A DNA stretch of 27,536 bases from a virus. The DNA lies in IMG/VR virus record IMGVR_UViG_3300024520_000410, positions 1 to 27,536 of that record. One strand, given 5' to 3'. Below, one piece after another: positions 1,749-19,867 of the stretch. The translations under genes were made by a program, and so were the position numbers. How positions within the stretch are numbered: the stretch's first letter is position 1; each line of letters begins with the position of its first letter. Below the pieces are notes generated by a model. It was not told the origin of the DNA and did no database searches. It saw only the letters and a list, made by a program, of their open reading frames with translations.

Positions 1749-4004
1749 ATGGGCGTCTGGGACACGATCGCCGGCATGTTCGGCGCGCAGACACGCGCGG
1801 CAGGCTACGACCTGAACACGCGCGACCTGGCCGGCTTCCTCCGGGAGTACGAAAGCGAGCGCGCCGTGTCGCAGCCGATCTCATTCGCGCCATCCCAGAT
1901 CCCGAGCGTAAAGGGTATCGGCTCGCAGCCTCCGGATGAGCGCCTACTCCAGGAAGTCCGAGGCTGGCAGGCAATCGCGACGCGCGCCATCGCGGACCGT
2001 GTCGCCGGGCTGGAGCTACAGGTCGGCCACATGGTGCAGGAAGGATCGCGCTCGACGTTCGACCCGCAGCCTAAGCACCCACTCCAGACGCTGCTAGACC
2101 GGCCGTCCCCGCTGCACTCACGCCGGAACACGCTCCACTTGATCGCTAACTACGTCGTCACGCTCGGGGAGGCGTACCTACTCAAGGTCGGATCGGATGC
2201 CGGCCTGACCGTGGAACTCTACGTGATGCTGGGAGGCTCGGTGTCGCCGGTCCTGTCTGCCGGCGTCGTCTCTGGCTATCTCGTCCGCGATGGCAGTGGA
2301 ACAGAGACGCCGATCGCCGCCGAGGACGTGGTGCGCGTCTGGCGTCCAGATCCAGAGAGCCTGTACACGTCCGTCGGCTTCCTCGGCCCGCAGGCGATCG
2401 CTGCGGACTCGTCGAAGTTCCTGTCCGAGCACCTACGCCGCCACTTCGAGCGAGACGCGACGCCTCGGATCATCCTGGAGCCTGCGAAGGATGCGGTCGC
2501 ACCCGGGCCGAAGGAAGAACGCCGGTTCAACCTGCGCTGGCTGGCGCGCTACAACCGCCGCAAGGGCACGCTCGTCGGCGTCCCGACGCGGCTCCCCGTC
2601 GGGTACACCGCCAAGGAATTCGCAGCGCACGGAGGCACGTCGGAGCTAGTGCCCCTGCTCGCGCACTGGCGCGATCAAACGCTGATGGCATACGGCGTAC
2701 CGCGTTCGATCGTGGGCGACGTGGTGGACGCCAACCGCGCAGCGGCCGAGACTAATCAGCTCGTGTTCGACCGGCACACGATCACGCCCATCACGGACTT
2801 GATCGCCGACGCGCTCACGCATCAGCTAGCGCAGCCAGAGCACGGGGACGCCGTCGTCCGCTTCGCGGAGTTCGTCTCCGAGGACTCGGAGCATCGCCTC
2901 GCCGAAGAGCAGCAGGACCTCTCGCTCAAGGTGCGGTCCATAGATCAGGTCCGCGAGGACCGCGGCCTAGAGCCCGTGACGTGGGGCGAGCTACCCGTCG
3001 GGTCCCCGATCGACACGCCCTACACAGGGGAAGAGCCCGAGCCGTTGGAACTCGAACCCCTGGAACCGAACGAACCCGACGAGCCGCCGGAAGACGACGA
3101 CGAAGACCCCGAGGGCGATCGGTCACGAGCGCAGACGCTCGCAGGCTGGGATGGGCGCGCGCGCATGGAGTGGCAGCGCACGCTTGACCGTGAGCGCCTC
3201 TTCGTCCCCCGCTTCCGCGCCGAGATGCGACGCCTATTCGAGCAGCAGGCGCGCTTGACCCTGAACGCGCTCCGGCCGTCGCTCGAACTGACCCGCTCGC
3301 GGGTTCACCTATCCCAGCAGGACTTCGCGCGCGCGTCCATCCAGGACATGCTGGCCGCGCTACGCGCTCTGTTCAAGTCAGAGCGCTTCGTCGAACTGTT
3401 CCGGATCCGTGTCGAGCCGATCCGCCGGGAGGCGATGCTCCGGACAGGTAGCGACGCGCTCGATAGCGCAGCAGCGCTCACGGGCGCTTCGCTGCCGGGC
3501 TTCCAGTTCACCCCTCAAGTACAGGCGGAGCTACTCCGGCAGGCGTCCACGTTCGCCGAGGTCGTCAACGCGACGACGTTCAAGGAACTGAACCTGAACC
3601 TACACCGAGCGCTCGCAGACGGCGCCGCGCTCGGGGAGCCCGTGGACGTACTCGCCAAGCGGATCGAGGGGCAGATCCGAGGCACCTACGCCAGCCGCAA
3701 GCGACGCGCGAAGGTGATCGCACGGACGGAGCTTCTACAGGCGACGCAGTCCGCGCAGGTCGAAGGCTTCCGGCAGAGCGGCGTAGTGGAGCGCAAGCGC
3801 TGGAACACGTCACTCGACGAATCCGTCCGGGACTCCCACCGAATCAATGGTCAGACGCGCGACCTGGACGAGCCGTTCCTATTGCCCGCAGACGCAGACG
3901 GACCGGCGGAGCTTGCAGAGGCTCCAGGTCGCGGAGTCGGAGGGGAGCGCCTGTCCGCTCACAATACGATCGGGTGCCGATGCTTCGTCACCCCGGAGGT
4001 ATAA
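1749..4004 (+). CDS. Fused portal protein and Mu F-like minor head protein
   Basis: The 751-aa protein joins two usually separate head proteins. Residues about 1-420 resemble HK97-type phage portals, the dodecameric ring at the vertex through which DNA passes, including the YGVPRSIVGD segment and a downstream helical region. Residues about 424-460 form an acidic, Pro-rich linker with a run of Glu/Asp. Residues about 465-751 resemble the Mu gpF-like minor head (head morphogenesis) family: IARTELLQATQ near residue 653, the KRWNTSLDESVRDSH block, and the ending HNTIGCRCFVTP. Standard portals are about 400-500 aa and Mu F proteins about 250-350 aa, so the length matches a full fusion. Ribosome site AAGGGGGAACGC precedes the ATG. 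The fusion would deliver one Mu F domain per portal subunit. Confidence 0.92.
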   Translation: MGVWDTIAGMFGAQTRAAGYDLNTRDLAGFLREYESERAVSQPISFAPSQIPSVKGIGSQPPDERLLQEVRGWQAIATRAIADRVAGLELQVGHMVQEGSRSTFDPQPKHPLQTLLDRPSPLHSRRNTLHLIANYVVTLGEAYLLKVGSDAGLTVELYVMLGGSVSPVLSAGVVSGYLVRDGSGTETPIAAEDVVRVWRPDPESLYTSVGFLGPQAIAADSSKFLSEHLRRHFERDATPRIILEPAKDAVAPGPKEERRFNLRWLARYNRRKGTLVGVPTRLPVGYTAKEFAAHGGTSELVPLLAHWRDQTLMAYGVPRSIVGDVVDANRAAAETNQLVFDRHTITPITDLIADALTHQLAQPEHGDAVVRFAEFVSEDSEHRLAEEQQDLSLKVRSIDQVREDRGLEPVTWGELPVGSPIDTPYTGEEPEPLELEPLEPNEPDEPPEDDDEDPEGDRSRAQTLAGWDGRARMEWQRTLDRERLFVPRFRAEMRRLFEQQARLTLNALRPSLELTRSRVHLSQQDFARASIQDMLAALRALFKSERFVELFRIRVEPIRREAMLRTGSDALDSAAALTGASLPGFQFTPQVQAELLRQASTFAEVVNATTFKELNLNLHRALADGAALGEPVDVLAKRIEGQIRGTYASRKRRAKVIARTELLQATQSAQVEGFRQSGVVERKRWNTSLDESVRDSHRINGQTRDLDEPFLLPADADGPAELAEAPGRGVGGERLSAHNTIGCRCFVTPEV

Positions 4005-4007
4005 GAC

Positions 4008-4481
4008 ATGCCGCATCGAATGCTAATTGCGCTCTTCTTGCTCCTGCTGGCAGCGCTAGCTCTGCCGCTGACGGCGGACGCCGTACCCGCGGCGGCTAGC
4101 GTCGTCGTGATCCCCGAAGCCGACTACGTCGCGACGGGCCAGTCAGTCGAGATCACGAACGCTAGCCAGTTCATATCCGGTCTGTGCCGGCTGCAAGTGG
4201 ACACCGCCACGGGCGACACCGTCGTAATGTCGCTGGAAGTGTTCGACCCGGCCGAGGGTGAGTGGAATGCCTGCATGACGAACGTGGGGCAGAGCAGCGC
4301 AGGCGTAACCTGCGTGGGGTTCGGGTCAGGCTGGGGCACGCCGCCTGCGGCCGGGCAGATCGAGTTCTGCAGCACCCTGTTAGAGGGGCAGTGCCTAGCG
4401 TCCAGTCGTCACCGCATCGTTACGGAGCACGCCGTAGCGGCGACAGCGCTGTACTCCGTGGCCTGCTGGTATGGGAGGTAA
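4008..4481 (+). CDS. Exported 157-aa protein with signal peptide
   Basis: This 157-aa protein has a textbook Sec signal peptide: basic start MPHRM, a Leu/Ala-rich core over residues about 5-22, and a likely cleavage site after ADA (about residue 25). The mature part is about 130 aa, with six or so Cys that could form disulfides outside the cytoplasm and a beta-strand-like alternation of residues. GGAGG lies 8 bases before the ATG, and an ATG at 4020 is a possible internal start. It sits between portal/Mu F and prohead protease, and its stop is within the ribosome site of the protease gene, so it belongs to the operon. I recognise no family. It could modify the host surface, block superinfection, or be a periplasm-routed virion accessory. 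Confidence 0.85.
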   Translation: MPHRMLIALFLLLLAALALPLTADAVPAAASVVVIPEADYVATGQSVEITNASQFISGLCRLQVDTATGDTVVMSLEVFDPAEGEWNACMTNVGQSSAGVTCVGFGSGWGTPPAAGQIEFCSTLLEGQCLASSRHRIVTEHAVAATALYSVACWYGR

Positions 4482-4485
4482 TCTG

Positions 4486-5346
4486 ATGCGACTCCGAGCG
4501 ATCGAACTCGAAGACGCGAGCGCGGATGGCTCGTTTACGGGGATGCTGGCTACGTCCGGCGAGGCGTCCGACGGGCACCGCCTGAACATGAACGGCGGCA
4601 ACCTGGAGGCAGGTCTCCCCCTGCTCGTCAACCATCGCGAGCCGCTGATCGGGCAGTGGACGGGCTTCGAGCGCGTCAAGCTCGACGACGGCGTCGGGAT
4701 CCGAGGCACGGCGCGAATCAATATGGACGGCGAAGGATCGCCCGCAGAGCTACGCCGAGACCTCGCGCTTCTCGTGTCGTCCGGTGACATCCGTGGTCTG
4801 TCTCTCCGCTGGGACGTGGACTCGGACGCCGACGTCCAGCGGCGGATCGACCTCCCGAAAGCGCACCCCGCACACGTAGGGCAGGACGAGCCGCACCGCC
4901 TCCGGCGCTTCGGTCTGTTCTTCGCTGCATGGCGTGGGGTGGAAGGGTCCATAGGGTTCGTTCCCAAGGATCGCGAGACCCTGATAGGCCGCTCGGAGCG
5001 GTCAGAGGACGTGTTTGTGCGGGACTTCTACCGCACGTCTGCGGAGTCTCTGGCCGTCCCCCTGGACCTCTCCGAGGATCCCCACGTAGAAGCGCTCGCG
5101 CGCGGCGTGGCGGACCTTGGACTCGACTTCGCCGGGCTTCGCGCTACGGTCGAAGGCATCGCCGCGCGCCTCGCGCAACCCGAGGCGGCACCTACGGCGA
5201 CTCAGCTCGCGCAACCCGAGCCGCAACTACGGGCGCATGTCGCGCCCGGGGATCTGGTCGAGAGCTTCCGCGCGGAACTCCGCGCGATCGAAGAGCGTCA
5301 GGACCGTCGCGCACTGGACGTGATCCGCGAGACGCTCGGGAGATAG
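4486..5346 (+). CDS. Prohead maturation protease with C-terminal helical (scaffold-like) tail
   Basis: The 286-aa protein resembles the HK97-type prohead serine proteases that cleave scaffold and capsid N termini during maturation. The likely catalytic His is H50 (context LLVNHREPLIGQW) and the likely Ser is S106 (context IRGLSLRW); the spacing suits the family. Residues about 195-286 are helical and rich in Ala, Gln and Glu, like an attached scaffold domain. I chose the ATG at 4486 because GGAGGT lies 6 bases upstream; an in-frame ATG at 4471 would sit inside the previous gene. The capsid gene follows 2 bases after the stop. Confidence 0.88.
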   Translation: MRLRAIELEDASADGSFTGMLATSGEASDGHRLNMNGGNLEAGLPLLVNHREPLIGQWTGFERVKLDDGVGIRGTARINMDGEGSPAELRRDLALLVSSGDIRGLSLRWDVDSDADVQRRIDLPKAHPAHVGQDEPHRLRRFGLFFAAWRGVEGSIGFVPKDRETLIGRSERSEDVFVRDFYRTSAESLAVPLDLSEDPHVEALARGVADLGLDFAGLRATVEGIAARLAQPEAAPTATQLAQPEPQLRAHVAPGDLVESFRAELRAIEERQDRRALDVIRETLGR

Positions 5347-5348
5347 TC

Positions 5349-6770
5349 ATGTCGAGACGAGCAAGCAAGCGCCGCACGTGGGCGCGTAACGAACCTGTCC
5401 ACGGCGTTCCGCCGCTCCAGGCATCCGTAGTGCCGGCACCGCAGCCGGCGCCTCCGGCCGACGCGCCTCCGGTCGATGCACGCGCCGAGATGATGCAGCT
5501 ACTCGCGGAACACGAGGAGCGAAGCTCCGAACGCCTGCTGGCGGGTCTGCGCTCCGCGCTGGCCGAACGCCTCCAGCCGCAGCGGGACACGCTGCGCGCA
5601 GTGGCTCCGCCGGATGGGCCGGCGCCGCAGCCTGCACCGCCGACGGGACGGATCACCACGGCATCGCCCTATAATGCGCTCTACGCGCAAATGCACCCGG
5701 CGATGCGTGCGGTCCGGAACGAAGAAGTGGACCACTATTTCGCCGCCTTCATGCGGGCGGCGACGTTCCACGATCACGCCGAGATTCGGCGGATTCAGGA
5801 ACGCTTCGGCGGTCGCTCAGCGGTCGCAGCTTCGGACGAACTGGAGCGCGATCAGTACGAAGGGCGCGCGACGCTCGCGGAGGGCACAACCACCGCAGTG
5901 TCGGGCCTCTCGCAGGGTACGGGCGGGCCGCTGATTCCGCTCCCGTTGGCTAACGTCATCATCACGGCGCGGAACCTCCGAGCGAAGTTCCGGCCGCGTG
6001 TGACGTCGTTCACGTCGCCGAACCTGACGCTCCGGGTCGCAGGGGCAGGGGTCGCCACGACCGGGCAGGTCGCGGAAGGCGCCTCGGGTTCACAGACGGA
6101 GCCGACGAACACGTCCACGCTCTTCGCCAAGGTAAAGACGCGGGCGAAGATGCGCGCCTCCGAAGAGTCGATCGAGGACTCTCCGTTCAACATCGCCACC
6201 CACTTCGGGGAGCGATCGGGCGCAGCCATCGGCGCAGCGGAAGACGTGCAGACGGCGACATCGAACGGCACCGCGCCGAACGTGTCGGACTCTTTCGATA
6301 ACGCAACCATCACGGCGTTCGCGGAAGCGACCATCACCGTGATGACCTATGCCGACGTCGTGGGTCTGTTCTTCGCCGTGCCCGAGCAGTACCGGGAGGA
6401 CGTCTCCATGTCGTTCTTCGGTAACTCTGCGATGGCAACCTTCCTCTCGACGATCCTGGACGGCAACGGGCGGCCGATCTTCACGCCGTCCGTTGACGCT
6501 CCGAGCGGGGTAGGCGACACGCGGCCGAACGCCATCGGGAACATCCTCGGTGCTCCGTTCTTCACGGCGCCTGTTGCGGCCGGCGGTCTGTACGCTGGCG
6601 CGCTCGCCTTCTGGGGATACCTGGACGGCGGCGGCATCCGGATGCGGGTGCTCGATCAGGTCGCAGCCGCGACGGATGACATCGAATATCGGTTCACGCA
6701 GCGGTGGGACTCCAACATCCTTCTCGCTGACGCGTTCCGGTCGATGGACGGCATCACTTCTGTCGCCTAA
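5349..6770 (+). CDS. Major capsid protein, HK97 family, with N-terminal delta-like domain
   Basis: The 473-aa protein builds the icosahedral shell. Residues about 1-120 are basic then Pro/Ala-rich and helical, like the HK97 delta (scaffold) domain removed by the protease encoded just upstream. The rest has HK97-fold hallmarks: GTGGPLIPLPLANVII, the glycine-rich AGAGVATTGQVAEGA segment, KVKTRAKMRASEE, and a closing block with YRFTQRWDSNILLADAFRSMDG. The reading frame is open far upstream, but the ATG at 5349, directly after the protease stop, gives the expected length. A 34-base hairpin follows the stop. Confidence 0.92.
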   Translation: MSRRASKRRTWARNEPVHGVPPLQASVVPAPQPAPPADAPPVDARAEMMQLLAEHEERSSERLLAGLRSALAERLQPQRDTLRAVAPPDGPAPQPAPPTGRITTASPYNALYAQMHPAMRAVRNEEVDHYFAAFMRAATFHDHAEIRRIQERFGGRSAVAASDELERDQYEGRATLAEGTTTAVSGLSQGTGGPLIPLPLANVIITARNLRAKFRPRVTSFTSPNLTLRVAGAGVATTGQVAEGASGSQTEPTNTSTLFAKVKTRAKMRASEESIEDSPFNIATHFGERSGAAIGAAEDVQTATSNGTAPNVSDSFDNATITAFAEATITVMTYADVVGLFFAVPEQYREDVSMSFFGNSAMATFLSTILDGNGRPIFTPSVDAPSGVGDTRPNAIGNILGAPFFTAPVAAGGLYAGALAFWGYLDGGGIRMRVLDQVAAATDDIEYRFTQRWDSNILLADAFRSMDGITSVA

Positions 6771-6783
6771 GCGGCGTCACCCT

Positions 6784-6817
6784 GGGGAGTCGGGCCGGCG
6801 CTTCGGCCCGGCTCCCC
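6784..6817 (+). terminator. Long GC hairpin after the capsid gene
   Basis: The arms GGGGAG-t-CGGGCCG (6784-6797) and CGGCCCG-g-CTCCCC (6804-6817) pair along 13 bp plus one T:G contact, with a 6-base loop. No T-run follows. The next gene's ribosome site (GGGGAGGG) starts a few bases downstream. The hairpin could protect the 3' end of capsid mRNA or partly terminate it, giving high capsid output relative to downstream genes. Confidence 0.65.
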
Positions 6818-6836
6818 ACCCCGGGGAGGGATCCAC

Positions 6837-7067
6837 ATGGCAACACGCAAGAAGGCGACGCGGAAGAGCGTCAAGGCGGGCGAGCCGTGCCTCCCCCACC
6901 ACGTGTGGCGGACGCGCGCTTTCGAGGGAAAGGTCTGCATGAAGTGCGGCATAACCGCGCGCGAGAACTTCGTCGCGAACATGCGGAAGGTGGGCGAGGC
7001 TGCGAAGCGTCGGTCCGCAGACGCAGCGAAGGCTGCGGCGAAGGCGTCGTCCGATGACTCGGCGTAG
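6837..7067 (+). CDS. Small basic protein with possible zinc site
   Basis: The 76-aa protein has a Lys/Arg-rich start and an Ala/Lys-rich helical tail. Between them C18-x2-H21-H22 and C34-x2-C37 could bind one zinc ion. It has a strong ribosome site and overlaps the next gene by 14 bp. It follows the capsid gene, but nothing visible identifies it as a head decoration protein. A nucleic-acid-binding accessory is a reasonable guess given its charge. Confidence 0.75.
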   Translation: MATRKKATRKSVKAGEPCLPHHVWRTRAFEGKVCMKCGITARENFVANMRKVGEAAKRRSADAAKAAAKASSDDSA

Positions 7068-7599
7068 GCCGCTCGCTCTCGGGATCGTCTTCGGGCTTCT
7101 GACATCGACGGCGATCGCGGCGGTAGTCATAAACGACCGCGACGTCCAGGTCGAAGGACCGCAGACGCTGGAGGCGCTGCTCGCGTCGGTCGCTAACGGT
7201 GAGGTCATCACCCGCACGGCCGGTACGCTCGGGAACGCCACGCCGCCGGCCGGGCGCTTCGACTCGAACCCGTACCTGGAGAACCCAGCCGACTACATCG
7301 CGAATCAGAACGGGTCGATGCAGATCAGCAGGGACCTAGCGCATACGCTCACTACGGTGCGCTGCTCGACGGACGTCGGGACGGTACTACTCCAGCTAGA
7401 GGAGCGGACCGCAGCGGCTCCGAACACCACGGGCGCGAACCTCATCACGGCGCCGTGTACCTGCGCTGCGACGGGTACGGTCTGCACTCTGGTCGGCGAT
7501 CCGACGCCGGACGCTAACGACCCGGTCGCCGTGGTGCTCTCGACGGTCACGGGAGGCGCCACCATCCTGCGCGCACACGTCTCTGCGAGCATCCCATGA
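7054..7599 (+). CDS. Exported 181-aa beta-rich protein with signal peptide
   Basis: The 181-aa protein starts with a signal peptide (MTRRRP, then a hydrophobic core to about residue 22, likely cut after AIA). The mature part ends in a domain of about 90 aa, starting near the VRCSTDVGTVLLQLEE segment and closing with a hydrophobic strand. That layout resembles the small beta-sandwich modules many phages carry on fibres or capsid decorations, and is similar in style to the repeats at the start of the adaptor encoded at 11016. It has four Cys, three of them in the PCTCAATGTVC cluster. Its start lies within the end of the previous gene and its stop shares ATGA with the next, which indicates coupled translation. 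Confidence 0.82.
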   Translation: MTRRRPLALGIVFGLLTSTAIAAVVINDRDVQVEGPQTLEALLASVANGEVITRTAGTLGNATPPAGRFDSNPYLENPADYIANQNGSMQISRDLAHTLTTVRCSTDVGTVLLQLEERTAAAPNTTGANLITAPCTCAATGTVCTLVGDPTPDANDPVAVVLSTVTGGATILRAHVSASIP

Positions 7600-10500
7600 C
7601 CCGCTTGGAGTTCTGCTCTGTCCTGGCTGCGACGCTGCTCGCATTCGTCGCCGGGACGAGTATCGCCATGGGCGAGACCTGCACCTTCCCCTCGGGCGCG
7701 CAGACGTGGGGCACGGGTGACGATGTGACGGCGCTCACTCCTGGCGCCTTCACTGGCTGCACGCCGGATACGTCGGACTTCTACGTCGCGTCAGGGACCG
7801 GCGGCTCTGCCACGCAGATCACCGTAGCGGGACACCTGGACTTCGCCGCGGCGGCGTCTCATATCTGCATCAAGGGCGACTCGACGCTTACCCTGGACGT
7901 GGTCGCGCAGGATCGTGCGCTCCGGCTCACGCTTCCGAGCGGTGCTACGGGTGTGTGTGCGACAGCGGCCGCGGACGAAGGTCTCGCCCTTGAAGCTTCC
8001 GGCGTCCTGACGCTGCAAGGCGGCTACATCGAGTGGGGCGACGCGACGCCGGTCCTGTTGAACGACCCGAGCGCCACGGACTTCGCGACGGTCGGGCTCG
8101 TCATCCCGTGTCTGGACGAGGACTGCACGACGAACGACGACTTCGAGCGATGGCAGTGGACCGACGCGCGCGACAATGCAGCCGAGGGCGCGCCCGGCGA
8201 TACGTTCCTGGACGAGTACCTCACGGAGGCAGGGACGTGGCTCGGGGCGGGCGAACGCCTGATGGCGTGCGTGTTCGATCCTGACGAGACGGACCCGGCC
8301 GGGCCGGTCGATCAGAATAACTGTTACATGGTCACGGCCGTCGACTCGACCGGGCCGACGTACTCGCTCGACATAGACCTGACGCAGCGGCTCGTCGCAT
8401 ACTCTGATTACTGGGACGACACGCACCGGGACGTTCTCTCCGTGACCATGTCGTCGAGCGTGGCGAAGGGGCAGCGCTGGATAGAGGTCCCCCACCTGAC
8501 CGTCGACTCACAACTAACCTACGCCGGCCGCTGGCTGCGCTTCGAGAAGGGCGCCACGCCGCAGGACCGTAGCTACATGATCTCGGCCACGGAAGAGGGG
8601 ACGTGCGTCGCGACGACGTCCGTGCACTGCACCGTAGACGAGCAGTGCGAGAGCTACCTTCTGACGGACACGTGTGACCAGACAGGCACGGACTGGATCC
8701 AGCTACTCGACACGCGCGGCGCCTTCGAGGCGTTCAATCAGGCGAGCGCGAATGAGAATGAGATCTGGATCGACTACGGGCACATGCGCGGGGATCCGTT
8801 CTTTCTGATGGTGCCCGTGGAGATCACGGCGGCAGCCGAAGTGGAGTGGGCCGTCGAAGACGTGGGCATAGCCGCGAGCAACGGGACGCTCGACTTCAAC
8901 GGCGTGCTAGCGCACGCTATGACCACGCTCGGAGCGCATCCGACGACGGGCGAGGCGGTCACGGTCGCAGGCTGGGATAACGTCGCAGCGTGGGAGATGG
9001 ACGGCGCCAACGCGATCCTACTCCGCGGGCAGGTCTCTGAGAATCAAATCACGGTGACAGGGAACGTGATCGGCCGGACGATGATCGTGGGCGCCTTGAC
9101 CTCGGACGACGAGGCTAACTTCTGCACAGGGATCGACACGCCGCACGACTGCTGCACGGGAGTCGGGACGGGCTCGTGTTTCGGGCCGTCGCACGGGTCG
9201 CTGCTGATGTTCGACGAGCAGCCTGTGGTCCGTAACTGGTCGATCAGGTACCGCGGGGACGACCTCGTCAACTACGGGGCGTCGGGGTACGACGCTCCCG
9301 TCACGGACATCCACGCGACGGTCGGTCCCATCCTGCACTTTGAGCGAGTCGACGGACGGTGGATGGCGCCGGCTCTCGCAGGCGGCGGACGCTCCGGCAA
9401 CTACATCGCCAACGCAGGCGGCGGCGAAGTGCAGCTCAAGACGAAGTCTGTGTTACACGACGGCGTCTGTGTAGCTTGCAGCTCGTGTGACGGTAACGGC
9501 GGACTCGTCGGCTCGCGCACCGGCGCCGCTCTACCCTATGACGGTGCGTGGTGGGACGGTGTGGCCGTGGTCGCGAATCACTGCGGCATGGACGCGGGGT
9601 GGACGTCGCGCTTTACGAACCTGCTCGTCGTCGGGACGCGCGCCTTCAAAAACAATATCTGGCCCGGCTGGCCGGAGGCGGCCGGTAATCTGTTCGACTC
9701 CCCTTCGAGCTACCGCAACTTCGTCATGCGCGACGGCGCGACAGACGCGGACGTGATCGACAGCGCCGCCGCCGCAAACGACTTTTGCTATAACACGACC
9801 GCCGAGACGACCGCGAGTAGCGAGCTGTGTAACGACGACACGGACTGCACGACCAGCGGCGAGACGTGCGACGGGCAAGGCGGGACGCACTTTCAGTCGG
9901 GGATCATCCGAGACAATACCTACGGCAACGTTGGGGTGTCCAACGCGCGGTGCAGCTCCGCGTCTACCCTACCCTGCTCGGGAGTCATGCAGGACGTCCC
10001 GACGGCGACGGGGGCGCAGTGGGAGAACATTCTCTGGCTCGACAACTACGGGAACCATCCCACGACGCACGTGCATGAACAGGGGTCGTTCTGCAACGTC
10101 GGCAACTGGAACCTAGAGGAGTCCACTTTCGCGTTCTCGCCGACCACGATCGCGGCTCCGCAGCTCGATGGATTCGTCCGCTATTCGGACACGCAGACGG
10201 CGTGCAACCAGACGGCGTGGCGGGGTCTGCTCTTCGCGAACCTGGCAGTGGGTGACGCCTTCCAGCTAAACGAATCCGTCGCAGAGCGGAGCGGCGCCGA
10301 CTCCCCCTACGCCGTCGGCTCCAACTTCTGCTACTCGAACAATCTACTGGACACGAGTCCGACACACGATCCGCAGACGGGGAATCTGCGCCAGAAGCGG
10401 GACCGCTCGCCGGGCTTCATCGACGAGGCGGCGGGCCGCTACGACACAGCGGCCGGCTCGTGGGCCGATCAGAACACGTGCGGGATTCGGCGCGGCGCAG

Positions 10501-10610
10501 CGGCTCCGGGTAACTGTGAGTACAAGTGGATGCACGCCATGCTCCGGACGGAGCCGGAGTGCATGGCGGACCTCGAGAGGGTCACGATCCCTCGGCGCGC
10601 AGCTCCGTAG
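7596..10610 (+). CDS. Large exported Cys-rich protein, probable beta-helix
   Basis: At 1004 aa this is the largest protein here. It begins with a signal peptide (hydrophobic core about residues 7-24, cleavage near SIA or MGE). The body is rich in Gly, Asn, Asp and Thr, with short repeated strands and turns (for example NNIWPGWPEAAGNLF and SGIIRDNTYGNVGVSN) typical of right-handed parallel beta-helices. At least four Cys-dense inserts occur, near residues 335-360, 507-525, 624-632 and 730-760, with patterns such as CNDDTDC...GETC that suggest disulfide-bonded loops and oxidising surroundings. ATGA overlap ties it to the preceding exported gene. Phage polysaccharide lyases and spikes often use beta-helices but normally lack a Sec signal. 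A surface-modifying enzyme or exported adhesin is possible; no catalytic residues are assigned. Confidence 0.8.
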   Translation: MTRLEFCSVLAATLLAFVAGTSIAMGETCTFPSGAQTWGTGDDVTALTPGAFTGCTPDTSDFYVASGTGGSATQITVAGHLDFAAAASHICIKGDSTLTLDVVAQDRALRLTLPSGATGVCATAAADEGLALEASGVLTLQGGYIEWGDATPVLLNDPSATDFATVGLVIPCLDEDCTTNDDFERWQWTDARDNAAEGAPGDTFLDEYLTEAGTWLGAGERLMACVFDPDETDPAGPVDQNNCYMVTAVDSTGPTYSLDIDLTQRLVAYSDYWDDTHRDVLSVTMSSSVAKGQRWIEVPHLTVDSQLTYAGRWLRFEKGATPQDRSYMISATEEGTCVATTSVHCTVDEQCESYLLTDTCDQTGTDWIQLLDTRGAFEAFNQASANENEIWIDYGHMRGDPFFLMVPVEITAAAEVEWAVEDVGIAASNGTLDFNGVLAHAMTTLGAHPTTGEAVTVAGWDNVAAWEMDGANAILLRGQVSENQITVTGNVIGRTMIVGALTSDDEANFCTGIDTPHDCCTGVGTGSCFGPSHGSLLMFDEQPVVRNWSIRYRGDDLVNYGASGYDAPVTDIHATVGPILHFERVDGRWMAPALAGGGRSGNYIANAGGGEVQLKTKSVLHDGVCVACSSCDGNGGLVGSRTGAALPYDGAWWDGVAVVANHCGMDAGWTSRFTNLLVVGTRAFKNNIWPGWPEAAGNLFDSPSSYRNFVMRDGATDADVIDSAAAANDFCYNTTAETTASSELCNDDTDCTTSGETCDGQGGTHFQSGIIRDNTYGNVGVSNARCSSASTLPCSGVMQDVPTATGAQWENILWLDNYGNHPTTHVHEQGSFCNVGNWNLEESTFAFSPTTIAAPQLDGFVRYSDTQTACNQTAWRGLLFANLAVGDAFQLNESVAERSGADSPYAVGSNFCYSNNLLDTSPTHDPQTGNLRQKRDRSPGFIDEAAGRYDTAAGSWADQNTCGIRRGAAAPGNCEYKWMHAMLRTEPECMADLERVTIPRRAAP

Positions 10611-10629: not shown

Positions 10630-10962
10630 GTGGTTGTGGTGAACGGAAACGGCGGAAAGCTCACCCTAGCGAATGCGATAATTACACTTTTCACCGCGGC
10701 GATTTTGGGGGTGCTAGCGTGGGGGTCTCACAGCGTGATCGAGCTACAAAAGTTTGCGGAGCGGGGGGATCGCTTCACGGCCTTGCAAGCGAACGACCTC
10801 CGAGACGAAATCATTACGGCATGGCGCGCAGAGCACGATCGGGAGCACGTGCCCAAGATCAGATTTATGATCGCAGAAGAGGTCGCGAAGGCGAACGCAC
10901 CGATCGTCGAGGCGCTGCACGCGCTAAGGCTTGACGCGCTCCGCGAGGGGACGCCACCTTAG
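10630..10962 (+). CDS. Single-TM protein with helical tail (lysis or tail accessory)
   Basis: This protein of about 110 aa starts at one of three closely spaced GTG codons (10630, 10636 or 10639) behind a GGGGG ribosome site. A membrane helix covers residues about 12-30, followed by a charged helical region of about 75 aa that may form a coiled coil. The frame stays open upstream, but those residues overlap the exported gene and look like shadow sequence. The shape is shared by spanin inner-membrane subunits and XhlA-like haemolysin accessories. The endolysin is encoded 9 kb away, so a lysis role is uncertain. Confidence 0.65.
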   Translation: MVVVNGNGGKLTLANAIITLFTAAILGVLAWGSHSVIELQKFAERGDRFTALQANDLRDEIITAWRAEHDREHVPKIRFMIAEEVAKANAPIVEALHALRLDALREGTPP

Positions 10963-11015: not shown

Positions 11016-12284
11016 ATGGCAGAGAATCAGATCATCCGCGGCGGCATCGAAGGCGTGCTCTCTGACGCGCTGGAGGTCGAACTCCCCAGCTTCGGGCAGG
11101 CGACCACGCTCCTACGCTTTACGCCTCGGGTATCGACGGCGCCGTCTGCGGCAGACGCCGTGATCCGGATCCAGAAGCAGAGCGGCGGAGCGCCGACCGA
11201 CTTCATACAGGCCACGATCGTCAACGGCGCACTACTCGGCGTGCAGGCTGCGGGCTCGATCTCTCTGTCCGCTGGGGACACGTGGTTCCTTCACGTCGTC
11301 ACGGCATCGGGTGCGGAGTGGCTGGAAGTAACGGTGATCGCGGACGTCGCGAACGTCACGGGGATAATTGATTCCACCTTCCCGGGCGTGCTCGTGGACC
11401 CTTTCGAGGTCGAGATTCCCAGCGTGCCGGGCGTGACCACGATCCAGCGCATCGTCGCGCGTGTCGCGACTGCGCCGTCTGGCGGGTCGTGCGTGGTCAA
11501 GATCCAGGACGGCTCGGGCGCCGCTCCGCCGAACTCGATTACGTCCACGATCTCGTCGGGGAGCACGATAGGAACGGCTGGGGTGGGTTCGATCGCCGTC
11601 GGTCCGTCAACTCGTCTCTACGTGCGGGCGACGCCGACGAACGGCGCGGAGTGGCTCCAGGTCGAGCTTGAGCTAGCGCCTGCGACAGGCGCCGCAGCGC
11701 TCGATCTGACTACGCTCGCGTGCGTCAAGGACGAGGCGAACATATCGGGGACAACGCTCGACGCTCTGATCGCGACTCTGATCTCGGCCGTGTCTGCTGA
11801 AATGACCCGGTACATGCAGCGGCAGATCGCGCCCGTGTCCTACACGTCGGAGCGCTTCGACGGTGAGGGCGAAAACTGGTTCGAGGTGAAGCACCCGCCT
11901 ATACGCGCGCTCACGGCGATCAATCTGGAAGGGGACCTCGGGGTCTACTCCGAGGCAGTAACGCTCGCAGGGACGAAGCGCGACGACGTGGCAGGGGTCG
12001 TGTGGATCGGCGCCGACGGGTTCCAGGACCTGGACCTAGTGACGCTGCTCGGGGCACACATCGGGGAAGTGACCTACGACGGAGGCTTCCCCGTGGTGCC
12101 CCTGGACATCGCGCAGAAGGCGTGCCTGCAAGTCATCCACGAGCTGAACCAGACAGACCGACGGGGCGGCCGGCTCGGGCTCCAACAGAAGGTGCTCGAC
12201 TCGGGAGGCACGTCCACCTATGTCGTCGGGAAGTGGGCGCCCGGCGTGCGTGAGACGCTCGACGCCTACCGCACGGAACTCTGA
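11016..12284 (+). CDS. Head-tail adaptor with two N-terminal beta-sandwich repeats
   Basis: The 422-aa protein has two parts. Residues about 12-110 and 120-222 are tandem copies of one domain of about 100 aa; matching landmarks are LSDALEVELPSF versus LVDPFEVEIPSV, VSTAPSAAD versus VATAPSGGS, and NGAEWLQVELEL versus SGAEWLEVTVI. The pattern suggests an Ig-like or jelly-roll beta sandwich. Residues about 228-422 resemble the HK97 gp6-type connector: an N-terminal helical pair, a beta insertion near YTSERFDGEGENWF, and a C-terminal helix with LNQTDRRGG. Adaptors alone are usually 100-200 aa, so the N-terminal half is an addition that could decorate the neck. Ribosome site GGGGGAG precedes the ATG. 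The next gene starts at the last base of the stop (TGATG). Confidence 0.82.
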   Translation: MAENQIIRGGIEGVLSDALEVELPSFGQATTLLRFTPRVSTAPSAADAVIRIQKQSGGAPTDFIQATIVNGALLGVQAAGSISLSAGDTWFLHVVTASGAEWLEVTVIADVANVTGIIDSTFPGVLVDPFEVEIPSVPGVTTIQRIVARVATAPSGGSCVVKIQDGSGAAPPNSITSTISSGSTIGTAGVGSIAVGPSTRLYVRATPTNGAEWLQVELELAPATGAAALDLTTLACVKDEANISGTTLDALIATLISAVSAEMTRYMQRQIAPVSYTSERFDGEGENWFEVKHPPIRALTAINLEGDLGVYSEAVTLAGTKRDDVAGVVWIGADGFQDLDLVTLLGAHIGEVTYDGGFPVVPLDIAQKACLQVIHELNQTDRRGGRLGLQQKVLDSGGTSTYVVGKWAPGVRETLDAYRTEL

Positions 12285-13540: not shown

Positions 13541-14638
13541 ATGGCCGGACAGAACTGGGCGGCGCTTATGATGCTGGAGGCGCAGGCAGCGAGGGGCACG
13601 ATCGCTCCGACGCTCGACGCCTTCAACTTCGCCACGACGCAGCCGACGCTAGCCGACGGACTGGTACTCGGCGACGCAGGCAGCGGCGAAGGCGAGAGCG
13701 GGATCGACTCCACGGTCACGCGGCGCCTCTCGGAAAAGGCGTTCGTTTCGGGGAGCTTCACGCGTCCCTTCTCGGACTTCCTGGCCGAGGACTTCGACAC
13801 CCTGACGTTCGCGTTCCCGTTCTGTGGCAACCGGCGCACGACCACGGTGCCTGTTGACGCAGACTTCCGCTACGAAGGCGGCATAGAGGGGATCCTCCGC
13901 GCCTGCGGGCTCCAGCGTGAGGCGTGGTCGGGCGGAGTCGGGGAGCGATTCTTCCCGGGTAACGTGTCGATCGACGGATCCGAGGGCGCCTACGCGTCGT
14001 GCCGGCTGCTCTATGAGGGGCAAGACTGGCACCTCCGCGACCTCGTCGGGGACTTGACGATCACGTGGACACCGGGCGAGATCCCCGTAGCGTCGGCCGC
14101 CTTCCCGGGTGCCATCGTCGATTCGTTCACGGGCGCGGCGTTCCCGTCAGGCGCGCAGGCGCCAGACTACGAAGAGCAAGCAAGCGTGTCGGCGATCATC
14201 GTCGAGAGCGCGGCGAACTTCTTTGGACACGGAGACACGGGCGCGACGTCGGACGTCGTTCGAGGATTCTCGTCGCTCGAGCTGGCGATCTCTAACTCGA
14301 TCGAAGACGTGCCGGACTCGAACCAGACCGGCGGCATAACGAAAGAGCAGACCGGGCGCGAGGTCGTCTGCCGGGTGACGCTCTTCCAGGACTCGGACGA
14401 CCCGGACTATCTGCGGCAGCGACTGATCGCGCAGGTCGCCGGGACGGATAAGCTCCAGTTCCAGATCGGCACGGCCGCGGGTGCAGCGGCGACCGCGCTC
14501 GCGCACCGCATCGTTCTGACGAACCCGACCGTGGGCAAGATCACGCCGCGCAAGGTCGGCGGATCGCAGGCGTGGGAGTGCGAGCTTCGGGTGATCGACA
14601 ACGTCGCGAACGGCGAACTGGATCTGATCCTACTTTAG
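13541..14638 (+). CDS. Major tail tube protein
   Basis: The 365-aa protein stacks as rings to form the tail tube. It is beta-rich with an opening of MAGQNWAALMMLEAQAARGT, a style common in siphovirus tube proteins that begin with a reference to parameter-like Thr/Pro segments, and a long central beta region (DLTITWTPGEIPVASAAFPG). A perfect GGAGG site precedes the ATG by about 7 bases. It directly precedes the tape measure gene. No separate frameshifted chaperone ORF was seen between the two genes (only 15 bp separate them), so the usual tail assembly chaperone pair is absent or unrecognised. Confidence 0.85.
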   Translation: MAGQNWAALMMLEAQAARGTIAPTLDAFNFATTQPTLADGLVLGDAGSGEGESGIDSTVTRRLSEKAFVSGSFTRPFSDFLAEDFDTLTFAFPFCGNRRTTTVPVDADFRYEGGIEGILRACGLQREAWSGGVGERFFPGNVSIDGSEGAYASCRLLYEGQDWHLRDLVGDLTITWTPGEIPVASAAFPGAIVDSFTGAAFPSGAQAPDYEEQASVSAIIVESAANFFGHGDTGATSDVVRGFSSLELAISNSIEDVPDSNQTGGITKEQTGREVVCRVTLFQDSDDPDYLRQRLIAQVAGTDKLQFQIGTAAGAAATALAHRIVLTNPTVGKITPRKVGGSQAWECELRVIDNVANGELDLILL

Positions 14639-14653
14639 AGGGGAGGTCCGGCC

Positions 14654-16177
14654 GTGGCGTTCAGTGGACGTCGGCACCGTGTAGACGTCGAGATCCGGGG
14701 GAAGGACAACCTATCCCCCGCGACGGCGAAGAGCGAGAAGGGTCTCCGTAGCTTCGGCGACACCGCCGCATCGGTAAAGGCTGGCCTGTTCGCCTTTACC
14801 GCAGCGGTCGCCGCGATGACGGTCGCGCTTGCGTCGTCGCTCGCGGAGTTCGCGAAGAACGAAGTGGCCGCTACAAAGTACGCGGCGGCGCTCCGCTCGG
14901 CCGACCAGTTCTCGCAGGCGAACGTAGAGAGCGCGAAGGCGCTGTCCAAGGAGCTCCAGGATCAGGCGAACATCGCACGCGCCGACGGGCTGGAGATGGC
15001 GTCCCTGGCGCTGGCGTTCACGAAGAACGCCGAGGAGGCAGAGCGCCTCACGCGTGCGGCTGCGGACTTCGCCTCGGGTGCTGGACTCAACATGGAAGAG
15101 GCGCTCCGGCGTCTCGGCCGTGCGACGCAGGGATCCGTAGACGACGTCTCGAAGTTCGTCCCCGAGATCCGCAACCTGACGAAGGCGCAACTGGAAGCGG
15201 GCGAGGCGACGCGCCTGATCTCGGAGCGCTTCGAGGGGCAGGCGAAGGCGGCGACAGACAATCTCGCAGGCGCCTACAAGTCCTTGACGCTGGCGGTCTC
15301 GGACTCCACGGCAGCGTTCGGCGAGGGCGCCGCGACGGCGGGCAACTTCCAGACGGAGATCGAAGAACTCGCGACGACGGTGGCAGAGAGCGAGGGGACG
15401 ATGACCCTTCTCGGAACCGCCGTCGGCACGGTCGCCGGAGTCTTCCCCGCAGCCATCCGGCGCATGCTCCAGTTCGCAGAGAATGCGCGCCTCGCAGCGG
15501 CCGGCACGAACGCGCTCAGCGAAGCGACAGACAAGGAAGCGGTAGCGGCGACGGAGGCAGCGGCGGCGGTCAACGTCCTGTCTGCCGCAGAGGAGCGACG
15601 CCTCCGGATACAGACGGACGTAGACGACACGCAGAAGTCTCTAAACGATCGCCTGACCGCGCTCGGAGTCGTGCTCGAAGCCGACGTCAACGTCCAGCTA
15701 CAAGCGAATGCCGACCTTATGGAGGCGGTCACGCGGAACGCTCGCGAGCTGGGACTCTCGGAACAGGACCTGACGAACATCGGGAAGGCGCTAGCCGCGG
15801 AGGACATCAAGCTCGCCGAGACCTTGACCGGCGTAAAGGAAGAGGCAGACCTCGCGACGGTAGCAATCGACGCGCTCGCGACGCAGGCGATCAGAGCCGA
15901 CACGAGCGCGGCCGGTCTCTCGTCGTCGCTGGTCGGCGTCAAGGCGGAGCTGGCGAGTGCGGAGATCGCAGCCATCAGGACGGCGCAGGCGTTCGACCGG
16001 CTCGCAGCCGCGCAGGGGCGAGCCGCTGCGGTCGATGCAGCGGTCCGCAGTGGCGGGCAACTGGTACTCGGCGGAACGCGTGTCAACCTACCGGGCGGCG
16101 GATCGCGCCTGACATCGGAGCCGGGCTTCCGGACGCGCTTCTCTGGCGGGTCGAGCGGCGGCGGAGGTAGCTTCTAG
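14654..16177 (+). CDS. Tail tape measure protein
   Basis: The 507-aa protein starts at GTG behind AGGGGAGG. It is almost entirely helical, rich in Ala, Glu and Thr. Residues about 38-58 form a hydrophobic stretch (FAFTAAVAAMTVALASSLAEF) and the C terminus is Gly/Ser-rich (SGGSSGGGGSF). These are typical tape measure features; the length sets tail length, and at about 0.15 nm per residue would predict a tail near 75 nm, short for a siphovirus. Opening RRHRVDVEIRGKDNLSPA is common among tape measures of this class. Confidence 0.88.
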   Translation: MAFSGRRHRVDVEIRGKDNLSPATAKSEKGLRSFGDTAASVKAGLFAFTAAVAAMTVALASSLAEFAKNEVAATKYAAALRSADQFSQANVESAKALSKELQDQANIARADGLEMASLALAFTKNAEEAERLTRAAADFASGAGLNMEEALRRLGRATQGSVDDVSKFVPEIRNLTKAQLEAGEATRLISERFEGQAKAATDNLAGAYKSLTLAVSDSTAAFGEGAATAGNFQTEIEELATTVAESEGTMTLLGTAVGTVAGVFPAAIRRMLQFAENARLAAAGTNALSEATDKEAVAATEAAAAVNVLSAAEERRLRIQTDVDDTQKSLNDRLTALGVVLEADVNVQLQANADLMEAVTRNARELGLSEQDLTNIGKALAAEDIKLAETLTGVKEEADLATVAIDALATQAIRADTSAAGLSSSLVGVKAELASAEIAAIRTAQAFDRLAAAQGRAAAVDAAVRSGGQLVLGGTRVNLPGGGSRLTSEPGFRTRFSGGSSGGGGSF

Positions 16178-16178
16178 C

Positions 16179-16988
16179 ATGGCCTATCGGGAGCCGTTCT
16201 TCTGCTCGCGTCACATGTACAGGGGGGGCAGCGGGATCACCGCAGCCAGCGCAGCGGCGGCCGGGTTCCCCGCGTCGCGCGTCGCGGACGGCCGGCACGC
16301 TGTCAACTTCAAGCACGGAACATCGCAGGCGAATAACACGATCGCGGTAGACGCTGGCGGGGTACCGATCCTGAACTCGGATCGGCTGCTGATACCGACG
16401 GGGCACAACCTCGCGGGACTGCGCCTGCTCGTCGAGACGGACGACAACTCCGGGTTTGCGACGCCGACGACTATCCTTGACCTCAATCCCGTGGCGACCA
16501 GTGGCGTGATTAGCGCCGCGATCTCCGGTCCGGAGCGGCACATACGCTGCAACGTGGTGGACGTGTCGATCCCCGAATATCCCGAGATCTGGATCACGCG
16601 CGACCTCACGCCGACACGCGGCCCGGCTCCCGACTTCAAGGGCGATGGGCTCGTGGCGGCGCAGCCTAACATAGAGGTGATCGAGACACAGGGTGGCGAG
16701 ACGTTCCGGACCGTACACGGGCCGTCACGCAAAGTCTTCGACGTGGAGTGGCGCTTCCTGACCGACGTGGACATGGATCCAGCGGCGGGCACCTTCGGTG
16801 CGCTCGCGGTGGATACGAACTCCGGCGCGCTCCCGTTCTGGTTCTTCGATACGAACTCCGCACACGAGCCGATCTATGTAGAGCTGGTACGTCCGCTCGC
16901 GGATAGCGTCCAGCAGGATCACCCGGACCCGCGAGGCGCGGGCAACCGCTGGCGCGTGAGCCTGCAACTAATCGAAGTCCTCGCCTAG
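16179..16988 (+). CDS. Distal tail protein-like
   Basis: The 269-aa protein follows the tape measure and precedes the hub, the normal place of the distal tail protein. It starts MAYREPFFCSRHMYRGG, has an Ala-rich N-terminal part, and a C-terminal beta domain ending in a strand (WRVSLQLIEVLA) typical of proteins that pair with tube and hub rings. The ATG is one base after the tape measure stop, with GGAGG inside the end of that gene. Family assignment is by position and architecture. Confidence 0.7.
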   Translation: MAYREPFFCSRHMYRGGSGITAASAAAAGFPASRVADGRHAVNFKHGTSQANNTIAVDAGGVPILNSDRLLIPTGHNLAGLRLLVETDDNSGFATPTTILDLNPVATSGVISAAISGPERHIRCNVVDVSIPEYPEIWITRDLTPTRGPAPDFKGDGLVAAQPNIEVIETQGGETFRTVHGPSRKVFDVEWRFLTDVDMDPAAGTFGALAVDTNSGALPFWFFDTNSAHEPIYVELVRPLADSVQQDHPDPRGAGNRWRVSLQLIEVLA

Positions 16989-19867
16989 TGCTCGCGCTTA
17001 CCGCCGAGCAGCAGGAAGCCTCCGGAGCGCGCGAGGTGATGGCGGTCAACTTCGTCACCGTCGTCGCCTACTCGGATAAGGATGCAGGGACGGTGCTCCA
17101 GACGTGGCGCTTCGCGGATCTGCCGGTGACGTTCAATTCGGACGCGTACGAATCACTGCTGATCGACGTCACCCCGCAGACCGACTCCATGGTCCACCTT
17201 CCGCGCCTCGAATCCGCCGGCTCGGATGGCGTGCCGGGCCGCACACTGCGAGCAGTCATCCACCGCGGCGACATCGACGGCACGCTGCTCTACGAAGACA
17301 TGCGAGGGCAGAACCTGGAGTCCGCTTCCGTCGAGTGGTTCCAGGTACTGGTCCCGCTCGGCGGGCAAGGCGCAGACGTTCCGCCGCTGGAGAACATCCA
17401 ATCCGTGCAGGCGGCCGTCGCGGCGATGGTGATCGGGGACCGCGTCGTCCGGTTCAACGGAGACTTCGAGGACTGGGAAGTAACCGATAAGGGGATCGAG
17501 ATCACGGCGCGCGCTGCGCGGCCGGCGATCCCGTGGATCATCGCAAGCGACGCTACGCAGGTAGACCCTGACGACGTCGGGCGGCGCTTGCCCTTCGTAT
17601 ACGGGAAGATGGGGAAGGTCCGCGCCGTCGGCTGGGACGTCGGCGCAGCGTCTACGCTCTCGACGCTGATCGACGAGGATGACACGACCATCGTCGTCAC
17701 AGACGGCTCGCGCTTCCCGACCTCGGGCTCCGGTCTGATCGGCACGGAGTCCGTGTCCTGGACGGGGCGGACAGCGAACTCGCTCACGACCGTCACGCGC
17801 GGAGCCGACGGCACGACGGCCGTGTCGCACGCGCTCGGGGAGGTACTGGTAGAGACGATCGCGACGGCTACGTGGATCGTCAACGCACGCGAGTCTGACG
17901 CCTTCGGAGACCTCTTCGTAGTGTCCCCCTACAACGGCGCCGTGGTGCGTGTCGATGCGAGCCTGTACACGTCCACGCTCGCGGACACGACCACGATCAG
18001 CGGCGAGACGGTGACGTCGGTCAAGTTCACGGCCGCTAATCTGCGTGCGCTGCTGATCGACATCGCATCCAAGGGCACGCTCGGAGAGGGCGCGCTCGCT
18101 ACGGAGGAACGCTTCCCGGACGCCTACCCGAACACGCCGGCCGCGCAGGATCACTATTCATGGCTGGACGGGAACATCCAGACGGGCCGGACATCGAACA
18201 CCATCAACCGCCGGCTCCGCTTCGAGGAGAGCGGACCCCGCGCCGATCGAGTGATCGAGAAGTGTACCTATCGGTTCCATGCGAGCCTGACGAACACGGC
18301 GACGATTCAGCTCCGCGAGACCTCGGGCGGCGCCGTGCTCGAAACGATTACCAACAGCTTCGGCGTGACCCATCAGGCGTGGTGGGAGATCGAGACCACG
18401 GACGCCGGCCTGCTCGGCTCGGAGCTATGGATTACCACGTCGGTCGGCACGGTGACGATCCTGGCGGTGAGCCGCATCGAGCACTTCGCGGGTGTCTTCC
18501 CGTTCGAGTGGGTGAAGCCGAAGGCGACGGCGTCCAGCATGGGGACGTTCGGTCACTTCACCGATGGCGAGACGGCGGTCGGCGGGGTGACGACGCTCAC
18601 GACTGCGGGCTCTACGCGCGTGTTCACGATCACCTACGACACGGACACAGGGGACCCGCCCGAGGAGATCCGGTACCGCGTCTACGCCAAGCTGAACGCG
18701 GGCACGTCCACTGCGTCCGAGGTGCGGATCCAGGGATCGGGGGACGCGCTCGGGACTTGGATCGGTCGCTCGAAGAACACGGGCGGCGCTATTGAGGGGT
18801 TCTTCGAGACGGTCATCACGTCCGACAATGATTCCGGCGAGCTGGCGTCTGACGTGATCCAGGTCCAGCTACAGAACGGGAACGCCGGGACGTCGTCGAA
18901 CGTCACCGAGGTCGAACGCTGGGAGCTTCGCCCGGCTCTGACCTCGTCGGCCGAGATCGCCGCGACCACGGTCGGCATCGGGCTCGTGCTCTTCGCGGAC
19001 CTGGACGGGATCGTAGCGGCCGGCGGGAACTACATCGCCGCAGACGGTGTCGTCCTGGAGAAGATGCCGGACATTCTGCGGCACGTGATCGCGGACCTCG
19101 CGGGTGAGGGGCAGACGGCGATCTCTGCGAACTGGGACGACGCCGCGAGCGCGACGAACCTGGACGACAACGTCCACGCGCTGGTTCTGAACACGCTCGG
19201 CGCCAGCTTCGAGGAGATCGTGGAGCGGGCGGCGTTCGACTCGCGCGCGAATATCGGAGTGACGCACGGGAGCGCCGCGACGCCGCTCCGAATCTGGGAG
19301 ATGCTGGCAGCGGAGAGCGACTATACGTGGGACCCGCCGGGCGGCGGCGCCGTGTCGCGTACGATCTCACGCTACAGGAACGTTACGGAGAAGCTCCGTC
19401 CTAGCTTCGAGGTGTTCACCCGCTTCCGTGCGCTTTACAACTGGGACGCGTCGCGCGGCGACGGTCCCGAGGCGTTCGACTCCGTGGTCCGGATCGACAC
19501 CGATCAGGCGGACACGCACGGCTCTACCGGCGGGCCGTCGAACACGGAGATCGCGACGGCCGAGACGATCTACGGACGCCGCGACGCTCCGGCCGTGCTC
19601 TTCCCCACGATCCGCGACGAACTCACGGCCGAAGAGGTGCTCGGGTACTACGCGAAAGAACGCATCCGCGAGGGCGTGCGAGAGTTCAGCGTGTTCGGCG
19701 TCGTCTGGATCGAAGCCTACGACCTGGAGCAAGGGGACGTGGTCCTACTCGAAGTGGACTGGCTGGACCCCGTCGAAGACCCGAACGGCGCGCGGCTCCG
19801 TATCGTGCAGATTGACAAGGATCCGTCCACTAACACCTTCGACGTCTACGGGGTAGAGGTCTCGTGA
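16988..19867 (+). CDS. Tail hub/tip protein with inserted beta-sandwich modules
   Basis: This 959-aa protein starts at GTG sharing TAGTG with the previous gene. Residues about 1-215 resemble siphovirus hub N termini (Tal/gpJ-like), ending with DDVGRRLPFVYGKMG. Residues about 225-290 hold a small recurring phage motif (SRFPTSGSGLIGTE ... TVTRGADGTTAVSHALG). Residues about 384-500 and 506-652 look like two beta-sandwich (carbohydrate-binding-like) modules. Residues about 655-959 return to hub-like sequence, closing with VWIEAYDLEQGDVVLL. The protein probably closes the tail tip and, through the inserts, contacts the host surface. It is the main receptor-binding candidate in the late operon. Confidence 0.8.
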   Translation: MLALTAEQQEASGAREVMAVNFVTVVAYSDKDAGTVLQTWRFADLPVTFNSDAYESLLIDVTPQTDSMVHLPRLESAGSDGVPGRTLRAVIHRGDIDGTLLYEDMRGQNLESASVEWFQVLVPLGGQGADVPPLENIQSVQAAVAAMVIGDRVVRFNGDFEDWEVTDKGIEITARAARPAIPWIIASDATQVDPDDVGRRLPFVYGKMGKVRAVGWDVGAASTLSTLIDEDDTTIVVTDGSRFPTSGSGLIGTESVSWTGRTANSLTTVTRGADGTTAVSHALGEVLVETIATATWIVNARESDAFGDLFVVSPYNGAVVRVDASLYTSTLADTTTISGETVTSVKFTAANLRALLIDIASKGTLGEGALATEERFPDAYPNTPAAQDHYSWLDGNIQTGRTSNTINRRLRFEESGPRADRVIEKCTYRFHASLTNTATIQLRETSGGAVLETITNSFGVTHQAWWEIETTDAGLLGSELWITTSVGTVTILAVSRIEHFAGVFPFEWVKPKATASSMGTFGHFTDGETAVGGVTTLTTAGSTRVFTITYDTDTGDPPEEIRYRVYAKLNAGTSTASEVRIQGSGDALGTWIGRSKNTGGAIEGFFETVITSDNDSGELASDVIQVQLQNGNAGTSSNVTEVERWELRPALTSSAEIAATTVGIGLVLFADLDGIVAAGGNYIAADGVVLEKMPDILRHVIADLAGEGQTAISANWDDAASATNLDDNVHALVLNTLGASFEEIVERAAFDSRANIGVTHGSAATPLRIWEMLAAESDYTWDPPGGGAVSRTISRYRNVTEKLRPSFEVFTRFRALYNWDASRGDGPEAFDSVVRIDTDQADTHGSTGGPSNTEIATAETIYGRRDAPAVLFPTIRDELTAEEVLGYYAKERIREGVREFSVFGVVWIEAYDLEQGDVVLLEVDWLDPVEDPNGARLRIVQIDKDPSTNTFDVYGVEVS

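Follow-up and report, generated by a model that had tools for sequence, protein, structure and literature searches.

Tailed-phage virion proteins are expected to be cytoplasmic. What, then, are three genes with Sec-type signal peptides doing in a phage head operon, and where would their products act? The sequence that raises this question (hereafter the window, 27,536 nucleotides) is the IMG/VR virus record IMGVR_UViG_3300024520_000410, a near-complete tailed phage. Its positions 1-195 and 27342-27536 overlap over 195 bases with 96.9% identity, which gives a near-complete genome of about 27.3 kb (about 27.34 kb) that closes into a circle, the mismatches in the overlap reflecting strain variation.

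Three signal-bearing genes in a head operon

The operon runs in the order TerL, a 128-aa gene, a portal-MuF fusion, SP1, prohead protease, major capsid protein, a 76-aa gene, SP2 and SP3, and continues with a 107-aa gene with one transmembrane segment, the head-tail adaptor, and neck and tail genes (Table 1). An earlier note on this DNA had placed the first signal-bearing gene between portal and protease and the other two after the capsid gene; this is the arrangement found, except that the 76-aa gene intervenes between capsid and SP2. The overlapping or abutting junctions that it described are likewise present: the SP1 ATG at 4008 follows the portal stop at 4004, with a GGAGG within the portal end; the protease ATG at 4486 (or 4471, overlapping) follows the SP1 stop at 4481; SP2 starts within the end of the 76-aa gene with a 14-nt overlap; SP2 and SP3 share an ATGA at 7596-7599; and the next ORF begins about 20-30 nt past SP3. 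GC at codon position 3 is raised in SP1, SP2 and SP3 (0.80, 0.82 and 0.84), as it is in the adjoining genes.

Table 1. Features of the head operon, with positions in the window
Feature	Position	Strand	Basis or remarks
Portal-MuF fusion	1749..4004	+	phrog_2662, Phage_portal, Phage_Mu_F
SP1, 157 aa, between portal and protease	4008..4481	+	predicted cut after ADA25; 132-aa predicted mature part, 6 Cys
Prohead protease	4486..5346	+	phrog_80 match weak but in place; relatives by phmmer
Major capsid protein	5349..6770	+	phrog_10, Phage_capsid
76-aa basic protein, between capsid and SP2	6837..7067	+	ORF alone
SP2, 181 aa	7054..7599	+	Sec-type signal; 159-aa predicted mature part, 4 Cys
SP3, 1004 aa	7596..10610	+	Sec-type signal; 980-aa predicted mature part, 32 Cys
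Motif in SP3, NFCTGIDTPHDCCTGVGTGSC	9123..9185	+	common to secreted-type proteins of many phage contigs
107-aa protein, one N-terminal transmembrane segment, directly after SP3	10639..10962	+	sequence, hydrophobicity
Head-tail adaptor	11016..12284	+	C-terminal half phrog_442; downstream edge of capsid-to-adaptor slot

The three precursors add up to 1342 aa and their predicted mature parts to 1271 aa. None has a homologue in Pfam, PHROGs, NCBIfam or the named phages, or a significant match in the PDB; SP3 does not match the Beta_helix, depolymerase or lyase models of Pfam, and its sole find in IMG/VR is one 99.99% identical contig. A single-sequence structure prediction for SP2 was uninformative (pLDDT 33). 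Of their neighbours, the 76-aa protein has no family matches, and the 107-aa protein, possibly holin-like, has no match in Pfam, PHROGs, NCBIfam or the named phages. Near the terminase end a 407-aa late protein (24616-25839), with neither signal nor family match, is a possible fibre. Scans of bacterial genomes for a host yielded no relative of the portal and only distant relatives of the terminase.

Predicted signals and cysteine content

Signals were scored with a home-made rule-based predictor that rewards positive charge in the n-region, a hydrophobic core free of charges and small side chains at -3/-1; a score of at least 6 counts as a pass. By this home-made score SP1-SP3 display the full Sec/SPase I pattern and all pass, with 9.04, 7.97 and 6.0 respectively, SP3 being the weakest of the three and right at the threshold; the Sec-type signals that the earlier note had read on the genes at 4008, 7054 and 7596 are there, in frame. 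Shuffled N-termini matched the real score in 0, 0 and 0.35% of 2000 trials for SP1, SP2 and SP3, and internal windows of the same proteins never reached it. Among related loci, which were collected by terminase or portal similarity and, like the motif contigs below, are mostly fragments of uncultured viruses with gene starts from a simple caller, and not fully independent samples, 31 of 824 genes score at least 6 overall and none of the 102 core structural genes does, which agrees with the earlier premise that virion proteins lack Sec signals. In the structural regions of six named phages, 2 of 115 CDS pass the same threshold; one of the two, a capsid gene, is probably spurious. None of SP1-SP3 has a lipobox ([LVI]x[GAS]C) around residue 20, which rules them out as lipoproteins or spanins.

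The predicted mature proteins all have even cysteine counts. Together they contain 42 Cys in 1271 residues; the twelve other late or structural proteins of the window contain 14 in roughly 4866, and the density in SP1-SP3 is about 11 times theirs (odds ratio 11.8). An even number of cysteines is preferred in exported, disulfide-bonded proteins of Gram-negative bacteria (PMC7678975). Across the phage loci fetched, signal-bearing proteins without the SP3 motif (see below) have an even:odd ratio of 37:3 (37/40; 50:11 with motif proteins included), versus 311:215 (311/526) for signal-less proteins (p=5e-6); the motif-bearing proteins alone, at 11:8, have no even bias. The density and even counts in SP1-SP3 would fit folding in an oxidising compartment.

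The SP1 slot in related loci

The same gene order, which the earlier note had proposed to look for in related phages, recurs in part. In one locus (L020) a 172-aa signal-bearing gene with 4 Cys separates portal from protease, and capsid follows; in another (L051) a 91-aa signal-bearing gene comes after the portal; and in a third (L052) two genes stand between portal and protease, first one of 126 aa that lacks a signal and then one of 148 aa that has it, with capsid after the protease. Seven others (L004, L010, L053, L054, L056, L057 and L058) have no portal-protease insert, and the slot therefore appears to be optional, with contents that turn over fast. Homology between SP1 and the same-slot gene of L020 is not detectable by BLASTP, and a multiple alignment was too loose for use. 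The tandem genes of L052 (3746-4583) are paralogues (34% identity, E=2e-17), of which the signal-bearing copy has 2 Cys and the signal-less copy 0.

In a second lineage (L042-L047, with capsid phrog_334 in L046), a number of signal-bearing genes follow capsid. One of them, in L199 (11295-15644), a locus of the contig that also contains L046, encodes a 1449-aa protein with glycosyl hydrolase 18 and TIG domains. The earlier note's larger claim, that about 1,300 residues of protein are exported, is well supported as a prediction: the signal scores, the density and even counts of cysteines, the signal-bearing same-slot genes of related and (see below) unrelated phages and the L052 pair all point that way.

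A cysteine motif and comparable cassettes in other phages

The core of the SP3 motif, CCTGxGTGxC, was searched against IMG/VR as a degenerate DNA pattern, which matched 49 stretches; in-frame translation of these yielded 34 non-redundant proteins. Three are encoded on bacterial contigs, and most of the 34 have the longer form CxxxxxPxxCCTGxGTGxC. A tblastn search found the motif in none of the named phages. A signal at the called start is present in 23 of the 26 motif proteins with an N-terminus inside the contig, versus 44 of 315 other genes of the motif loci (p=3e-15) and 28 of 714 genes of the terminase-relative loci. This association is not circular, because the motif excludes the N-terminus, though cysteine motifs are to be expected in exported proteins anyway. 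In genomes of the Desulfobacterota phylum (1/198) and the Myxococcota phylum (2/189) the motif is near control level and therefore indicates no host. One genome (G175, L189-L191) of the Smithella phylum sample has it three times in two contigs.

Three contigs recovered via the motif were read more widely and typed. L194 has capsid (phrog_10), 458 aa, 87 aa, a signal-bearing 150-aa gene, 426 aa with a signal-like start, a signal-bearing 722-aa gene with the motif, 375 aa and adaptor (phrog_442). L195 has capsid (phrog_10), 219 aa, four signal-bearing genes, a signal-bearing 481-aa gene with the motif, 81 aa, lysozyme, two small genes and adaptor (phrog_442). L196 has portal, protease, capsid (phrog_10), three genes, signal-bearing genes of 134, 289 and 268 aa, then 254 aa, and finally a signal-bearing 1513-aa protein (13766-18307) with 126 Cys and three CCTGxGTGxC copies. 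The slot in the window is built alike: capsid (phrog_10), 76 aa, SP2, SP3, 107 aa, adaptor (phrog_442). In L194 and L195 signal-bearing genes occupy the capsid-to-adaptor slot; in L196 and L199 they follow the capsid gene. A further locus (L148) has its motif protein, of 1206 aa and with a right-handed beta-helix, between the neck and major tail genes. Genes for lysozyme or for holin-like or spanin-like proteins adjoin signal-peptide cassettes in L140/L195, L144, L155 and L157.

Domains and folds of the cassette proteins

A domain scan of 56 signal-bearing proteins of the cassette contigs matched collagen repeats, Beta_helix and Phage_fiber_rpt twice each, and GH18, GDSL lipase, F5/8C, Laminin_G_3, Phage_depo_C, PelZ and GTA_spike_fiber once each. 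As far as such matches tell, these are domains typical of phage fibres, spikes and proteins that act on glycans. An L155 protein matches the head-spike-fibre model NF048003 weakly (E 1.1e-5, below cut-off). On another virus contig (L187, 1283-3705) two adjacent signal-bearing proteins have long Gly-x-x (collagen-like) runs.

The signal-less L052 paralogue is predicted, with moderate confidence, to be all-beta (pLDDT 67.6, pTM 0.67). Its fold resembles phage proteins to which no function is assigned, including V5YTA7 of Pseudomonas phage PPpW-3 (115 aa; TM 0.65/0.70); a PDB fold search gave weak jelly-roll-like matches only. The head region of PPpW-3 has a single 115-aa gene, ORF-7, between endonuclease and head closure Hc1 after the capsid gene, and by length and place V5YTA7 is probably its product.

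What SP1-SP3 may do

Sec export of SP1-SP3 with disulfide-bonded folding is the best-supported step and, to judge from their sequences, likely. In the reading that we favour, SP1-SP3 would be made late from the head operon as virion-appendage-type proteins and exported by the host Sec translocon; removal of the signal peptides would leave the mature parts given in Table 1, and disulfide bonds would form outside the cytoplasm. The periplasmic proteins would be freed around lysis, or earlier given a host outer-membrane secretion system, and would then bind or cut envelope, capsule or matrix polysaccharide of the producer cell and its neighbours. The signal-like N-termini, the slot, the cysteine pattern and the recurrence of these are supported by sequence; we infer from them the export itself, the cleavage and the route of release. 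The glycan target comes from domains in similar cassettes of other phages that are absent from SP1-SP3; as these match no family, it is proposed by analogy only. That SP1-SP3 are exported appendage-type proteins acting on glycans or surfaces after release is accordingly a tentative proposal, whose chances we put slightly under even. Against it, the crossing of the outer membrane is unaccounted for, the motif-bearing class lacks the even-Cys bias, and both the late co-expression and the location would be just as compatible with a virion component. The functions that the earlier note had offered (surface remodelling, exclusion of rivals, assistance in release, coating of virions) look alike from the sequence; the cassette domains of other phages favour, by analogy, glycan- or surface-directed action over a role in lysis, and coating of virions after lysis may yet apply, because the slot and the folds are of the head-decoration or head-spike type.

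This last possibility can be put more exactly: head decorations or spikes that cannot form disulfides in the cytoplasm would fold in the periplasm, meet the virions once lysis brings the two together, and then attach to heads or tails. Decoration genes typically sit in the capsid-adaptor slot, and both the fold match of the all-beta L052 paralogue to V5YTA7 and the sub-threshold NF048003 match of the L155 protein may point the same way. We nevertheless consider it rather unlikely, as a precedent for parts added after lysis was not found in tailed phages, and the fold link passes through a moderate-confidence model of a relative without significant homology to SP1. Export itself would be dispensed with if the hydrophobic N-terminus were a docking peptide for cytoplasmic assembly. 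There is a solved example in the same part of the particle: the head fibre of the gene transfer agent RcGTA binds its jelly-roll base protein through the hydrophobic IALGLGLGL (PMC7296036). In the collected signal-bearing proteins, however, K/R precedes the core in 56/56 and Ala stands at -1 in 53/56 (features that the predictor rewards, as charge and AxA, and that are partly circular as evidence); a mock N-terminus modelled on RcGTA, in part made up outside the residues quoted, reached a score of only 4.25; and the density and even counts of cysteines would be left unexplained, so that this explanation is improbable.

Superinfection exclusion or receptor masking, in which the proteins would coat the infected cell or its debris and block adsorption of rivals or progeny, accords with the predicted export and with the rapid divergence and presence or absence among relatives, as with accessory genes. 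Expression from the late operon would nonetheless be late for it, and SP1-SP3 have neither similarity to known exclusion proteins nor a lipobox or anchor; we give it equally poor prospects. A role as accessory lysis factors acting on the envelope might be read from the lytic genes adjoining several cassettes and the one-TM gene directly after SP3, yet SP1-SP3 lack a lytic domain and a separate candidate endolysin, assigned by eye and without family match, lies at 19864-20547; this is very improbable.

The favoured reading of SP1-SP3 extends to a recurrent module, for which the odds seem to us likewise a little short of balanced: diverse environmental tailed phages would fill the capsid-to-adaptor slot with cassettes of Sec-exported, disulfide-bonded appendage-type proteins, a soluble glycan-directed set that goes out with the progeny. 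Such modules would contain fibres, beta-helices, glycosidases and collagen-like proteins, often marked by CxxxxxPxxCCTGxGTGxC. If so, soluble glycan-active proteins set free by infected cells may open a path for the progeny; alternatively, virions may acquire disulfide-bonded parts extracellularly and be completed there. The cassettes would in either case be a source of candidate secreted enzymes and binders.

Comparison with known systems

In the open-licence articles searched we found no description of a phage head operon with a cassette of exported appendage-type proteins that recurs across unrelated phages and is marked by a Cys motif. According to a 2026 preprint (PMC13420450), soluble matrix depolymerases are not known to be encoded by phages; exported cassettes would bear on that statement as a concrete gene set. 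The detachable tailspike TspA of RcGTA described there would resemble the cassette proteins as a glycan-active appendage that may also be free at lysis; unlike for them, a signal peptide is not mentioned for it. The head spikes of RcGTA (base Rcc01079, fibre Rcc01080) are, in the passages of PMC7296036 that treat them, beta-rich and bind host polysaccharide. They are comparable as beta-rich head appendages, with the weak head-spike-fibre match of the L155 protein as a further likeness. They differ in that those passages report no Sec signal for them and give the fibre a hydrophobic docking peptide, which lacks the charged n-region of the cassette proteins; moreover, SP1-SP3 do not match the head-spike-fibre model NF048003.

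ORF-7 of PPpW-3 is alike in its slot after the capsid gene, in size and in the predicted fold of the signal-less L052 paralogue, and differs in having no signal and no cysteine. Phage-encoded exported proteins are known singly: morons and exclusion proteins such as Lom, Bor, Cor and Llp, some of them inside late operons, are exported to the envelope and are usually single, small, outer-membrane proteins or lipoproteins. The cassettes share with these that phage genes encode proteins predicted to be exported; in contrast, they are multi-gene and cysteine-rich, their products reach 1004-1513 aa, and they lack a lipobox.
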